DNA of 64,000 nucleotides, taken from Rhodanobacteraceae bacterium. Lineage in GTDB: Bacteria > Pseudomonadota > Gammaproteobacteria > Xanthomonadales > Rhodanobacteraceae. Under the pieces are notes generated by a model. It was not told where the DNA came from. It ran no database searches and saw nothing but the letters and a program-made list of their open reading frames with translations. Made by a program: the position numbers and the translations under genes. The stretch covers positions 1 through 64,000 of the forward strand of contig JAACZU010000001.1 of the NCBI GenBank assembly GCA_009996615.1, read 5' to 3'. The stretch's first letter is position 1. The number at the start of each line of letters is the position of its first letter. Below are positions 8,396-14,358 of the stretch, piece by piece.

Positions 8396-8519
8396 AGCCG
8401 GGAATGGGGAGTCGGGAATGGGGAATCGTTGAAGCGGGCCGGCTGTGGTCGGGTGGGGCGGAACCGGGAACGACACGCTGCTCTTTCGATTCCCGATTCC
8501 CCATTCCCGATTCCCGGCT
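8396..8519. repeat. inverted repeat of GGGAATSGGGAAT units
   Basis: Two 33-base arms (8396-8428 and 8487-8519) are inverted copies with 4 mismatches, built from GGGAATNG units and separated by 58 bases. The right arm runs into the stop codon of the short-chain dehydrogenase gene and the left arm ends 6 bases before efpL. It could form a strong hairpin between two co-directional genes. Confidence 0.8.
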
Positions 8520-9285
8520 ACTTCGGCGCCAACCGGATCGCGCCGTCGATGCGGATCGTCTCGCCGTTGAGGTAGCGGTTCTGGAGGATGAACGCGACCG
8601 TGTCGGCGTATTCCTCCGGCTTGCCCAGGCGCGAGGGGTAGGGCACCTGCGCGCACAGCGAGGCGTACACCTGCTCGGGCATGCCGTCGACCATCGGCGT
8701 GTGGAACACGCCCGGCGCGATCGTCATCACGCGCACGCCGATGCGCGCGAACTCGCGTGCCATCGGCAGCGTCATGCCGACCACGCCGCCCTTCGAGGCC
8801 GAGTACGCGGCCTGGCCGATCTGGCCTTCGAACGCGGCGATCGAGGCGGTGTTGATGATGACGCCGCGCTCGCCGTCCTCGCCCGGCGCGTTGTGCTGCA
8901 TCAGCGCGGCGGCGGCCTTGGCGACATTGAAGCTGCCGACCAGGTTGACCATCACCGTGGTCGCGAACGTCGCCAGCGGCATCGGGCCTTCCTTGCCGAG
9001 CACGCGGCCGGCGCCGAGGATGCCGGCGCAGTTGACGACGACGTTGAGGCCGCCGAGCGCGGCCTGCGCGTCCTTCAGGGTGGCGGCGACGCCGTCCTCG
9101 TTCGTCACGTCGGTGCGGAAGTAGCGCGCGGCGGCGCCGAGCTGCTGCGCGGCGGCGTGGCCCTTGTCGTCGTTGACGTCGAGCAGCGCGACCTGCGCGC
9201 CGTGCGCGACGAGGTGCTGCGCGACGGCGAAGCCGAGCCCGGAAGCGCCGCCGGTGACGACGGCCTTGACCTGATCGAGTTGCAT
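8518..9285 (-). CDS. short-chain dehydrogenase, 3-hydroxyacyl-CoA dehydrogenase type II-like
   Basis: The 255-residue protein has the NAD-binding TGGASGLG motif near residue 12, DVN at the end of beta 2 (NAD preference), NCAG, and the catalytic Ser-Tyr-Lys set ([17 protein letters not shown]). The [15 protein letters not shown] segment resembles the HSD17B10/type II 3-hydroxyacyl-CoA dehydrogenase group, which oxidises short and branched 3-hydroxyacyl-CoAs. That would suit the branched-chain catabolic genes further right, but the link is inferred. It is cytosolic. Its stop codon overlaps the end of the inverted repeat. Confidence 0.9.
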
Positions 9286-9377: not shown

Positions 9378-9995
9378 TCAGCGGACCGGTGCCATCAGGT
9401 GCTGGTACGGCGTGCCGGCCCACATCACGTAGGGCTGCGTCGTGTCCGGATCGGGCTTCTTCGGATAGGCGTCGTAGAAGCCGGGATCCGCGCCGACGAC
9501 CATCACGTGCGGGCCGGTCTTGACCCAGTGGTTGCCCGCCTCGGGCTTGGTCGCGTACGGATCGGTATTGCTCGCGTCGGTGCCGCCTTCGAGCATGTAC
9601 ATGAAGCCGACCTTGCCGGGCGTGGGCGTCTGGTGCGTGGTCCAGGCGTTCACCCACTCCATCGCATTGGCATCCATGCACATCGGGTCGGGGCCCGGTG
9701 TGGCCGGGTTGTCCGGCATGCAGGTGAAGCCGTTGCTGCCCTGGCGCAGCGTGCGCATCTTGCCGGCTTCGTCCATCACGACGACGCTGGCGTGCTTGCC
9801 CACGTTGACTGGCGCGGCGCGCATCGCGCTGGCGATCAGCTTGGCGTCGCCCGGCATCGCACCGGCGGCGTGCTTGCCGCCCATGCCCTGCATCGCTTCG
9901 TGGGTAGGCGGCTTGTCTGCGGCCCAGGCGCTCAGCGCGAGCGTCACGGCCATGCCGACGAGCGCGGATCGATGGAACAGACGCACGGTACACAT
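9378..9995 (-). CDS. exported hypothetical protein
   Basis: The 205-residue product starts after a clear GGGAGG at 5-base spacing. An N-terminal signal peptide (LVGMAVTLALSAWAADKP) predicts export with cleavage near residue 25. A Met/His/Gly-rich stretch follows (THEAMQGMGGKHAAGAMPGD), then FTCMPDNPATPGPDPMCMD with two cysteines that could pair, and a C-terminal YVMWAGTPYQHLM. The same architecture occurs, from memory, in unannotated exported proteins of several Proteobacteria. Function unknown. Confidence 0.75.
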   Translation of the reverse strand: MCTVRLFHRSALVGMAVTLALSAWAADKPPTHEAMQGMGGKHAAGAMPGDAKLIASAMRAAPVNVGKHASVVVMDEAGKMRTLRQGSNGFTCMPDNPATPGPDPMCMDANAMEWVNAWTTHQTPTPGKVGFMYMLEGGTDASNTDPYATKPEAGNHWVKTGPHVMVVGADPGFYDAYPKKPDPDTTQPYVMWAGTPYQHLMAPVR

Positions 9996-10175: not shown

Positions 10176-10982
10176 TCAGCCGATCGTGCGGCGGAAGTCC
10201 AGGTCGTAGCGGGCGCCGCCGGTGAGTGCATGCAGGCGCAGGTTGGTGATGCGGATCGGCGCGCCGGGGGCGAGGTCGGCGATGTTCGACTCGACCATCT
10301 CGGCCGGGTCGATTAGCGTGATGCCGCCGCTGCCGATGACCTCGAGCACGTTGTCCGGCCCGATCACGGCGGCGGTGGCGGCGTCGACGCCGAGGCCGAG
10401 CGCGAACGGGTTTAGCGCCAGCGCCGCCAGCAGGCGGCCGAGCCGATCGCTGGCGGCGCCGCCCTGATCGATCACGACGCGGTTGGTCAGGCCCAGGCCC
10501 GGCGCCAGGTTCGCGCCGCCGCTGCGTGGCGTCGCGCCCTCGCTGCCGTGCGCCAGCATGTGTTCGCACAGCGCCGCCGCGCCGGCACCACAGCCGGCCA
10601 CCGCCAGTCCTTCGGCGTTGCGCCGGCGCAGCACGCGCGCGAGCGCGGTTCCGCCGATCAGCGTCGACAGGCGCAGCGGCTGGTCGGACAGCAGCAGGGC
10701 GAGCTGGGCGCGCTCGAGCGCGTCGAGCAGCGCCGGCCGCTCGCTGTCGGCACGCGCCTGCAGCAGGTGCCGATGTACCTCGCCGGCGCCGGCATCGAAC
10801 AGCGCGCGCTCGAGGTCGTCGTCCCCGCGCGGTTCGAGCGCGCCGATCACGACGACGCGCGGATGCGGATCGAGCAGGGCGAGCAACTGGCCGAGCAGGC
10901 GCGCGTCGCGTTCGTTCGTGCCGAGGTCGCCACTGGCGACGATCAGGCCGCGCTGGCGGTCGGGAGCGAGTTTCGCGGGCAT
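10176..10982 (-). CDS. cyanophycinase-like (S51-fold) protein lacking catalytic Ser and His
   Basis: The 268-residue protein follows the cyanophycinase plan: LIVASGDLG at the start, VVVIGALEP, SDQPLRLSTLIGGTAL, the nucleophile elbow, then PGLGLTNRVVIDQ and LALNPFALGLGVDAATAAVI. The elbow reads AGCGAGAA at residues 130-137, so Gly132 replaces the nucleophilic Ser of the usual GTSAGA. At 172-174 the Asp-Gln-His motif is Asp-Gln-Gly. The substrate arginines are partly kept (Arg180 and Arg183 present, 178 is Ser; numbering from memory of the Synechocystis enzyme). Hydrolysis of cyanophycin by the known mechanism is therefore unlikely. It might be a binding or regulatory protein. No cyanophycin synthetase gene is nearby. 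Confidence 0.8.
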   Translation of the reverse strand: MPAKLAPDRQRGLIVASGDLGTNERDARLLGQLLALLDPHPRVVVIGALEPRGDDDLERALFDAGAGEVHRHLLQARADSERPALLDALERAQLALLLSDQPLRLSTLIGGTALARVLRRRNAEGLAVAGCGAGAAALCEHMLAHGSEGATPRSGGANLAPGLGLTNRVVIDQGGAASDRLGRLLAALALNPFALGLGVDAATAAVIGPDNVLEVIGSGGITLIDPAEMVESNIADLAPGAPIRITNLRLHALTGGARYDLDFRRTIG

Positions 10983-11022: not shown

Positions 11023-13314
11023 TCAGCGCAGGGCGCGGATGTGCGTGGCGAACGCCGCGGGATCGAGCGCCGGGCTGAACAGGTGGCCCTGGCCGAGCAT
11101 CATGCCGTGGCGCAGCAGGAACGTGCGCTGGGCCTCGGTCTCGACCCCTTCGGCGATCATCGTCAGGCCCAGCGCGTGGCCGACGCGGATGATCGCTTCG
11201 CAAATGGCCGCGTCGGCGTGGCTGGCGGGCACGCGGCGCATGAAGTCGTAGCTGATCTTGAAGCCGTCGATCGGCAGCTGGCGCAGGTAGTTGAGCGCCG
11301 AATAGCCCTCGCCGAAGTCGTCGATCGTGATGGTCACGCCGACCTCGCGCAGGGTATTGAACGTCTGCAGCGTGTCGGGCGTGTCGTCGATCAGCATGCG
11401 CTCGATCAGTTCCAGCTCGAGCGCGTCGCCGGGCAGGCCGTGGCGGCGAAGCGCGGTGAGAACCGTGTCGAGGAACGATTCGCTCAGCAGCTGCCGGTAG
11501 GAAACATTCACCGCGACGCGGTCGAGCGACACGCCGGCATCGCGCCATTCGCGCAGCTGGCGGCAGGCCTCGTCGATCGCCCAGGCGCCGATCGCGACGA
11601 TGTCGCCGGTGCTCTCGGCGTGCTGCACGAACTCGAGCGGCTGCAGCTCGCCGCGTTGCGGATGGCGCCAGCGCAGCAGCGCCTCGGCGGCGACGACGCG
11701 GCCGCTGGCGAGCTCGACCTGCGGCTGGTACAGCAGGTGCAGTTCGCCGTGGCCGAGCGCATGGCGCAACTGGTTCTCGATGGCGAGGCTGTTCTCGACG
11801 CGGCGCGCAAGCGCCGGCGAGAACATCTGCCAGGTGTTGCGCCCGCGATGCTTGGCTTCGCTCATCGCGGCGTCGGCGTGCTTGAGCAGTTGTTGCGCGG
11901 TCCGGCCACCGTCGGGGTAGCGCGCGACGCCGATCGAGGCGCTGATCACGAATTCCTCGCCGCCGTGCTCGAACGGGCAGCGGAACGCCGCGTTGATCGC
12001 TGCGGCGATCTCGCCCGGCGCCTCCTCGCGCAGCGAACGCGGCAGGACGACGAGGAACTCGTCGCCGGCGAAGCGGCCGCAGCGCGCCCCCTCGGGTAGG
12101 CACTCCTGCAACCGCAGTGCGGCACTGCCGAGCAGGCGGTCGCCGGCGTCGGCGCCGAGGATGTCATTGATGACCTTGAAGCGGTCGAGGTCGATGTACA
12201 GCAGGGCAGGCCCGTCCGCGTTGCGCGCTTCGCCGATCTGGCGGTTGAGCTCGTCGAGGATGCTCTCGCGGTTGGCCAGGCCGGTGACCGGATCGGTGAC
12301 CGCCTTGCGCCGCAACTCCAGTTCCATCTGCCTGCGCTCGGTGATGTCCTGGCAGGTGCCGATCAGGCCGTAGATGTCGTTGCCGCGCACGAGCGGGCGC
12401 GACACCGCGCTGATCCAGCGCCGCCGGCCGAGCGCCGTGACGATCTCGTATTCCTGCCGTTTCCCCTGCTGACCGGCCATGACCTCCCGCAGGTCGCGTT
12501 GCGCCCGCTCGCGGCTGCGCGGCGCGAACAGGGACAGCACGCGCTCGAGCGTGACCGGAAACTCCGGAGAGAGGTCGAACAGGCGGTACATGCCGCTCGT
12601 CCAGACCGGCTCGTCGCGGCCGAACAGCAGCTCGAAGCCGCCGATGTGGCCGAGCGCCTGCGTCTGTTCGAGCAGCTCCTGCGTGCGCTTGACTTCAGTG
12701 ACATCGTTGAACGTGGAAACGACCCCGTACGGCCGCGCCTCGCCCGGGCGCCGCAGTGGTGTCGCACTGACCTGCATCCACAGCGGCGCATCGGCCTTCG
12801 GCAGCCAGAAACAGATCAGCTCGGCTTCCACGGCATGGCCGTTGGCGAGCGCGCGCAGGCCGGGGAAGTTGCGCGGCGAGAGCATGTTCCCGTCGTTGTC
12901 GGAGAAGCGCCAGCCAGGGAAGCCGGCGGCTTCCAGCCGCGACAGCTCGCCGGAATCGACCCTGAAGATCCGCAGCGCCGCCGGGTTGGCGTAGATGACG
13001 CGCCCGGTCGCATTGCGCACGAGGACGCCGGTGTCCATCGCATCCAGCAGGGCGTGCTCGTGCGTGACCACCTCGTGATGGGCGCCCGCGAGGGGTTGCG
13101 GGTCCGGCGAGGCCTGCGCCATGTCGCGCCGTTCGCGCAATTCCTCGATCGCCCGGTGCAGCGTGCTGCGCAGGCCGGGGCCGAGGCCGGCGCCGGTCGC
13201 CAGCAGCGTGGTGAGTGCTGCGACGGCGCCGCCGACGCCATCGGCTGCTGGCACAGCATTTTCGTCGTGCGCGACGGATTCGACGGTCGTCGGCGCCAAC
13301 CCCTGAGAGTGCAT
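11023..13314 (-). CDS. PAS-PAS-GGDEF-EAL cyclic di-GMP signalling protein
   Basis: The 763-residue soluble protein has two PAS domains (about 75-195, starting LLDAMDTGVLVRNATGRVIY, and 200-325). A GGDEF domain follows (about 340-495, with AGDEF near residue 418, a variant compatible with activity). Last is an EAL domain (about 510-755) with EALLRW, VNVSYRQL, ELIERM, TIDDFGEGYSAL and AEGVET. Both metal-binding acids of the EAL core are present, so phosphodiesterase activity is likely; the cyclase may be active or regulatory. No membrane segment is seen. It is transcribed toward the cyanophycinase-like gene, 40 bases away. Confidence 0.92.
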   Translation of the reverse strand: MHSQGLAPTTVESVAHDENAVPAADGVGGAVAALTTLLATGAGLGPGLRSTLHRAIEELRERRDMAQASPDPQPLAGAHHEVVTHEHALLDAMDTGVLVRNATGRVIYANPAALRIFRVDSGELSRLEAAGFPGWRFSDNDGNMLSPRNFPGLRALANGHAVEAELICFWLPKADAPLWMQVSATPLRRPGEARPYGVVSTFNDVTEVKRTQELLEQTQALGHIGGFELLFGRDEPVWTSGMYRLFDLSPEFPVTLERVLSLFAPRSRERAQRDLREVMAGQQGKRQEYEIVTALGRRRWISAVSRPLVRGNDIYGLIGTCQDITERRQMELELRRKAVTDPVTGLANRESILDELNRQIGEARNADGPALLYIDLDRFKVINDILGADAGDRLLGSAALRLQECLPEGARCGRFAGDEFLVVLPRSLREEAPGEIAAAINAAFRCPFEHGGEEFVISASIGVARYPDGGRTAQQLLKHADAAMSEAKHRGRNTWQMFSPALARRVENSLAIENQLRHALGHGELHLLYQPQVELASGRVVAAEALLRWRHPQRGELQPLEFVQHAESTGDIVAIGAWAIDEACRQLREWRDAGVSLDRVAVNVSYRQLLSESFLDTVLTALRRHGLPGDALELELIERMLIDDTPDTLQTFNTLREVGVTITIDDFGEGYSALNYLRQLPIDGFKISYDFMRRVPASHADAAICEAIIRVGHALGLTMIAEGVETEAQRTFLLRHGMMLGQGHLFSPALDPAAFATHIRALR

Positions 13315-13455: not shown

Positions 13456-14358
13456 CTAGATGCCGGCCCGTGCCACGCGGCTGCCGGTTTCGCGGCCGAG
13501 CTGCGCGCTCAGCCACAGTCCGGTCTCTACCAGCGCCGGCAGGTCGATGCCGGTCGCGATGCCCAGGCCTTCGAGCATGTAGACGACGTCCTCCGTGGCG
13601 ACGTTGCCGGTGGCACCCTTCGCGTACGGGCAGCCGCCGGTGCCGGAAACCGCGCTGTCGACCACGCTCACGCCTTCCTCCAGGCAGGCGAGGATGTTCG
13701 CCAGCGCCTGCCCGCGCGTGTCGTGGAAGTGCACGGCCAGCGCGTCCATCGGCACCTCGGCCGTGACCGCGCGCAGCATCGCGCGCGCCTTGCCCGGCGT
13801 ACCGATGCCGATCGTGTCGCCGAGCGAGACCTCGTAGCAGCCCAGCTCGTGCAGGCGCCGCGCGACGCGCACGACGTCGGCGACCGGCACTTCGCCCTGG
13901 TACGGGCAGCCGAGCACGGTGGAGACATAGCCGCGCACGCTCACGCCGTCGGCGCGCGCCTGTTCGAGCACCGGCACGAAGCGCTCGATCGACTCGTCGA
14001 TCGAGGCGTTGATGTTCTTGCGGTTGAACGCCTCGCTTGCCGCGGTGAAGATCGCGACCTCGCGCGCGCCGACCGCGCGCGCGCGCTCGTAGCCCTGCAG
14101 GTTCGGCACCAGCACCGGGTAGGCGACGCCGGGCTTCTTCGCGATGCCGGCGAACACCTCGGCCGCGTCGGCCAGCTGCGGCACCCATTTCGGGCTGACG
14201 AAGCTGGTCGCTTCGATCGTGCGCAGGCCGGTCGCCGACAGGCGGTCGATCAGCTCGATCTTGGTCGCGGCCGGGATGATCGTCTTCTCGTTCTGCAGGC
14301 CGTCGCGCGGACCGACCTCGACGATGCGGACGGCGACGGGGAGGGAGGTGTCGGACAT
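13456..14358 (-). CDS. hydroxymethylglutaryl-CoA lyase
   Basis: The 300-residue protein opens with [16 protein letters not shown], the metal-binding Asp and active-site Arg of HMG-CoA lyases, and has [28 protein letters not shown] and the signature [15 protein letters not shown] with the catalytic Cys. It splits HMG-CoA into acetoacetate and acetyl-CoA, the last step of leucine degradation. The genes for the preceding steps (carboxylase alpha subunit, hydratase) lie just upstream on the same strand, so this belongs to a liu-type cluster, although 324 repeat-rich bases separate it from the carboxylase. Confidence 0.95.

Follow-up and report, generated by a model that had tools for sequence, protein, structure and literature searches.

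Cyanophycinase degrades cyanophycin, a bacterial nitrogen-storage polymer. The closest described systems are CphB of Synechocystis (MEROPS S51, TIGR02069; structures 3EN0 and 7UQW), the solved structure 7UQV, titled "Pseudobacteroides cellulosolvens pseudo-CphB," and the normal-triad cyanophycinases of a sister family of the same order (f12). For CphB, the passages of PMC3235067 that cite Law et al. 2009 give Gln101, Asp172, Gln173, Arg178, Arg180, and Arg183 as pocket residues and describe the role of Ser132. In the sections of PMC10206079 on gene context, synthetase and cyanophycinase genes are usually clustered, and cyanophycinase genes are found also in genomes without cphA1. S51-fold proteins without peptidase activity have been reported (Yadav 2019, as cited in a passage of PMC9239234). 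Our search of one open-access library for cyanophycinase combined with pseudoenzyme, catalytic inactivity, or Dokdonella, and for "pseudo-CphB" by itself, found no paper.

The window is the whole stretch of 64,000 nucleotides that was analyzed (G000:C1:1-64000), and its source genome has 3.9 Mb and is 99.97% complete. The protein encoded there shares with CphB the near full-length fold at 28% identity. Unlike in CphB, Ser132, His174, Glu201, Arg178, and the equivalent of Gln101 are missing, the gene does not adjoin cphA, and the genome is without cphA. The f12 cyanophycinases (e.g., L158 and L163) are its closest relatives in the tree with 44-47% identity, and several of them have HMG-CoA lyase, EAL, and GNAT neighbors in common with pseudo loci; unlike the window protein, they keep GTSAGA, DQH, and GIDEDT. 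7UQV is the best structural match (26% identity), but its sequence as aligned keeps Ser, His, and Glu despite the title. The protein also differs from the reportedly inactive S51 proteins of clade II; the passage of PMC9239234 concerned puts the Synechocystis cyanophycinase in clade IV.

The window protein and its active site

The open reading frame is intact and free of internal stops, and the coordinates and strand given by an earlier sequence-only reading proved correct (Table 1). The orthologues share this start to within one codon and use ATG, GTG, or TTG. With the curated equivalog model TIGR02069, the protein scores 142.2 bits and passes the cut-off of 126.6; the Tahibacter orthologue L057 scores 163.9 bits. 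With Pfam S51 (PF03575), it falls just below the gathering cut-off (21.1 vs 23.9 bits), and L057 passes with 34.2 bits. Matches to solved cyanophycinases range from 2e-28 to 4.5e-27.

An AlphaFold model was calculated from a 44-sequence alignment (mean pLDDT 83.1, pTM 0.84). The pLDDT is below 50 at residues 1-5 and 147-155 and averages 65 over 171-180. The model superimposes on 7UQV (Z 31.8, 1.9 Å, 253 residues), 7UQW (Z 31.7, 2.1 Å, 256 residues), and 3EN0 (Z 31.5, 2.3 Å, 258 residues). Foldseek puts the same three first, and the VIA-align rows after the S51 proteins have Z values of 6.5 or less. The predicted structure thus retains the cyanophycinase fold, and together the profile, the solved structures, and the model show that the resemblance is not due to chance.

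Table 1 Features of the locus, in window positions
Feature	Position	Strand	Remarks
Short-chain dehydrogenase	8518..9285	-	conserved downstream neighbor
205-aa protein	9378-9995	-	no Pfam or NCBIfam match
Pseudo-cyanophycinase ORF	10176..10982	-	268 aa, ATG start; profile, structure, and alignment matches
Ala201	10380..10382	-	replaces the third triad residue Glu201
Residues 178-183	10434..10451	-	Ser178 replaces Arg; Arg180 and Arg183 kept
Residues 172-175, DQGG	10458..10469	-	Gly-Gly replaces catalytic His174 and Phe175; 36/36 orthologues
Nucleophile elbow, residues 130-134, GCGAG	10581..10595	-	Gly132 replaces Ser
Residues 98-102, LSDQP	10677..10691	-	TGGNQ in canonical relatives; Gln101 equivalent lost
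PAS-GGDEF-EAL protein	11023..13314	-	upstream neighbor; stop 40 bases before pseudo-cyanophycinase start
HMG-CoA lyase	13456..14358	-	conserved upstream neighbor

Active-site positions were read from alignments to 3EN0, 7UQW, and 7UQV and to related loci. The triad is entirely gone: Ser132 is Gly, His174 is Gly, and Glu201 is Ala. The sequence-only reading had named the first two of these losses, which stand, and had missed the third. Its other residue assignments, namely Asp-Gln-Gly at 172-174, a substrate Arg (residue 178) turned into Ser, and the retained Arg180 and Arg183, agree with the alignments; Asp172 and Gln173 are likewise retained.

In the loop that reads TGGNQ in canonical relatives, both Gly residues (99-100) are absent. 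The ungapped alignment to 3EN0 makes Pro102 the equivalent of the CphB substrate residue Gln101. The window protein has a Gln101 of its own, which adjoins Pro102 and is not equivalent to that of CphB.

Conservation, selection, and distribution

The orthologue set comprises 36 distinct proteins from Dokdonella, Tahibacter, and relatives; named carriers include Dokdonella fugitiva and Tahibacter species, and NCBI taxonomy places Dokdonella in Rhodanobacteraceae, Lysobacterales. None of the 36 has Ser132 (Gly in 30, Ala in 5, Glu in 1), His174 (Gly in all), or Glu201 (Ala in 30). Since the entire clade carries the same losses, a local mutation or a sequencing error is ruled out. GTSAGA and DQH, which in most orthologues would have pointed to such a mutation, are present in the sister family and in the distinct copy of the cph cluster, not in the pseudo orthologues.

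The pocket-residue set is incomplete throughout. Arg178 occurs in no orthologue, and the Gln101 equivalent is Pro in 35 and Ala in 1. Asp172, Arg180, Arg183, and Gly175 are each invariant (36/36), and Gln173 is found in 34.

The sequence-only reading had also considered an enzyme using Cys131, next to the elbow, and had asked about conservation of GCGAGA. Of its residues, Gly132 is found in 30/36 orthologues and Cys131 in 12/36; elsewhere residue 131 is I, L, A, G, V, M, or S. In the window protein, Cys131 does adjoin the former nucleophile position, but the low conservation of the Cys makes a Cys nucleophile improbable, and the His174 and Glu201 partners exist in no orthologue. We rejected this candidate and consider an active peptidase of this kind extremely unlikely.

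Conservation was further compared between 34 pseudo rows and 37 canonical rows of the alignment. Across the pseudo rows, 88 of the 268 positions are at least 97% identical. Arg153, Arg258, Asp260, Asp262, and Phe263 are invariant in all 34 and variable in canonical enzymes; Gly174 and Gly175 are also newly invariant. Among the canonical rows, 79 positions are at least 97% identical. Of these, 46 persist in at least 90% of the pseudo rows and 22 in fewer than 10%. Most of these 22 lie in active-site loops, where 16 are lost and 5 kept, against 6 lost and 41 kept elsewhere (Fisher p 6e-7, a descriptive value and not a fair test because the loops were selected after the lost residues were known). 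Many active-site loop residues vary among the pseudo rows.

Selection was measured as pairwise NG86 dN/dS in 19 genome pairs. For the pseudoenzyme, dN/dS is 0.085-0.399 in the nine pairs in which the canonical copy is present too; in the ten further pairs it is 0.056-0.315. The canonical copy has the lower value in eight of the nine matched pairs, which are not independent since some genomes recur among them. Purifying selection acts on the gene, more weakly than on the canonical copy but clearly. With the catalytic residues lost clade-wide (36/36), no stop in 27 genes, and dN/dS of 0.06-0.40 in 19 pairs, the earlier view of a retained pseudoenzyme and not a decayed gene is upheld, and the gene behaves as a conserved pseudoenzyme.

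We searched 148 related genomes for the orthologue, for the synthetase CphA, and for canonical cyanophycinase. The orthologue is present in 27 (57-100% identity, no inner stops). Fourteen of these carriers have, in a separate cluster, both a CphA that passes the cut-off and an additional copy of canonical type; the additional copy in G073 is cut by a contig end and was counted without motif reading. The other 13 have neither CphA over the cut-off nor a normal cyanophycinase, some of them being incomplete genomes (G008 and G011 86%, G086 93%). In the window genome, the best of 14 TIGR02068 matches reaches 59 bits vs a cut-off of 850, so that the absence of a cyanophycin synthetase, first noticed for the neighborhood, extends to the whole genome. 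Several weak matches are grouped at C3:45-53 kb, and we tentatively take them for cell-wall ligases.

The canonical motifs (GTSAGA, DQH, and the Glu of the GxDE motif) are found in all 20 copies L126-L145. They were also read in 23 of 25 other loci, the two remaining ones being pseudo orthologues; some of these loci represent the same gene twice. A search across 398 genomes of the order gave many further matches, with 36-48% identity among the matches listed, and another dead copy may be among them.

Many cph clusters of the order, such as that of G005:C6 near 12-17.5 kb, hold a second, shorter synthetase-like gene beside cphA and cphB; its match to the CphA model is confined to about positions 476-850. 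The window genome has an asparaginase-2 type gene (PF01112), a family that includes isoaspartyl peptidases named in a passage of PMC10206079.

Relatives and gene order of the locus

In a tree of 71 rows, all 34 pseudo rows fall on one branch (100/100), and these together with six f12 rows stand opposite the 31 others on a 100/98 branch. With the active-site columns removed (45 rows), the branch of pseudo and f12 rows holds (100/98.8). The AU test rejects a tree in which the pseudo rows are placed with their own family's cph-cluster copies (p-AU 0.0003). The tree and this test rule out a recent duplicate of the cph-cluster copy. The tree is unrooted, and its reading in terms of orthology assumes a root among the other rows, some of which are alphaproteobacterial enzymes.

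The nearest relatives are thus the normal-triad cyanophycinases of f12, several of which lie at the same locus. The shared order is HMG-CoA lyase, GGDEF-EAL (often PAS-GGDEF-EAL), cyanophycinase, and GNAT. Among the seven f12 genomes examined, G140 and G146 show the complete series: HMG-CoA lyase, EAL gene, cyanophycinase, GNAT. In G134, the lyase lies directly upstream of the cyanophycinase and close to the contig end. A short contig of G152 carries the EAL gene and GNAT, and G115 carries GNAT, its lyase being on the opposite strand. G098 and G107 have none of the three on the same strand. In a CphA search of six of the seven (all but G152), five (G107, G115, G134, G140, and G146) encode CphA over the cut-off elsewhere, and the match in G098 is only partial. 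Because the nearest relatives have a normal triad, several of them at the same locus, and share one side of the 100/98 branch with the pseudo rows, a normal enzyme at this locus appears to have turned into the retained pseudoenzyme.

Of the 23 pseudo loci L041-L063, 17 have HMG-CoA lyase upstream and 17 have GNAT downstream; in three of the six that lack the lyase, the upstream sequence is shorter than 3 kb. The PAS-GGDEF-EAL gene is missing from its place in most pseudo loci. In the window, the gap of only 40 bases suggests that it is co-transcribed with the pseudo-cyanophycinase. In G023 and G046 (L147 and L151), the pseudo gene lies away from the leucine-catabolism neighbors. GNAT was considered as an obligatory partner and rejected: at E <= 1e-20, no GNAT homologue turns up in 15 of the 17 carriers among 20 genomes queried.

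A 4-base overlap between the end of the cyanophycinase gene and the start of GNAT occurs in the f12 genomes G115, G146, and G152 and in the pseudo loci L059-L063. At the f12 loci L158, L164, and L181, it is a normal-triad cyanophycinase that overlaps GNAT in this way, away from cphA. The cyanophycinase-acetyltransferase pair of f12 points to a possible modified degradation step. Relatives of the 205-aa protein occur in the neighborhood of some loci, in L042 and L045 on the other strand and the other side.

Possible roles of the retained protein

From the lost residues, we infer that the window protein no longer hydrolyzes cyanophycin and that the gene is kept for a non-catalytic protein, with a binding or scaffolding role favored. 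As the gene is kept intact even in species apparently unable to make cyanophycin, the protein probably does a job different from that of cyanophycinase. A dependence of this job on cyanophycin is hard to envisage, since roughly half of the carriers lack both the synthetase and the normal cyanophycinase.

On balance, we favor the following course of events. A normal-triad cyanophycinase would have stood at the HMG-CoA lyase/PAS-GGDEF-EAL/GNAT locus. In the Dokdonella/Tahibacter lineage, the whole triad has been lost and so has the TGGNQ loop, with the remainder under purifying selection; hydrolysis would have ceased, and the protein would have been retained non-catalytically. The kept Asp172, Arg180, and Arg183 would most likely build an altered pocket together with the new invariant Gly174-Gly175 and Arg153. 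What binds in such a pocket may be a small molecule, either an Arg- or Asp-type metabolite or an anion, or else a partner protein, and the window protein could then act as sensor, scaffold, or regulator. The best candidate for the new binding site is the strictly conserved series Asp172, Gly174-Gly175, Asp179-Arg180, and Gly182-Arg183, where the model is unsure. The variable active-site loop residues argue against a conserved ligand site there, and the mean pLDDT over 171-180 is 65. The retention of Asp172, Arg180, and Arg183 may be purely structural.

Three other explanations have to be weighed. The protein could be a neofunctionalized enzyme that performs a different chemistry with new catalytic residues, for example in the Gly-rich 172-183 loop or among Arg153, Arg258, Asp260, and Asp262. 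The residues newly invariant in the 34 pseudo rows fit this idea, but the old site has no recognizable dyad or triad and we found no link to a reaction or pathway, which leaves it a minor possibility. A slowly decaying relic under relaxed selection and of little functional weight would explain the higher dN/dS in 8/9 matched pairs, the many variable active-site positions, and the several genera of the family without a match, besides the same-genus genomes G001 and G003 (80% and 77% complete). A relic is unlikely, however, as all 27 reading frames across several genera lack inner stops, dN/dS is well below 1 in all 19 pairs, and a third of the chain (88/268 positions in 34 rows) is nearly identical.

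A dedicated regulator of cyanophycin metabolism, acting for instance in mixed dimers with active cyanophycinase, would suit the 14/27 carriers that also have CphA and the canonical copy. A precedent is the cyanobacterial CphB, which is modulated by the partner protein ArgD according to the passages of PMC12661447 on this interaction. Both ArgD contacts given there, His174 and Arg178, are missing here, however, and 13/27 carriers have neither CphA nor the canonical copy; we consider such a regulator quite improbable.

The non-catalytic sensor, scaffold, or regulator described above remains our preferred reading. More broadly, we think it rather likely that cyanophycinase has in one bacterial family taken on a stable non-catalytic role independent of cyanophycin, be it as ligand sensor, as scaffold, or through new chemistry at the Asp-Gln-Gly-Gly loop. 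Carriers keep the gene in the absence of CphA and CphB (13/27) and of GNAT (15/17). The locus offers a clean case of an enzyme that became a conserved pseudoenzyme, with normal-triad relatives at the same place to compare it with. Through it, the use of the cyanophycinase fold apart from catalysis can be addressed. If the reading is right, genomes that lack cyanophycin metabolism keep a non-catalytic protein that annotation still treats as an enzyme. The NCBI equivalog model can call triad-less proteins "cyanophycinase" (the window protein and L057), so surveys of cyanophycin use based on such names would overcount.

The window genome encodes a second S51 protein (L001 1027-2070, minus strand, G000:C2 near 234 kb). 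It scores 98.2 bits with TIGR02069, under the cut-off, and 44.4 bits with PF03575. It has GTSAG, a His, and DEDT motifs and, by inspection, a lipoprotein-like start, and is possibly an exported cyanophycinase-like peptidase.
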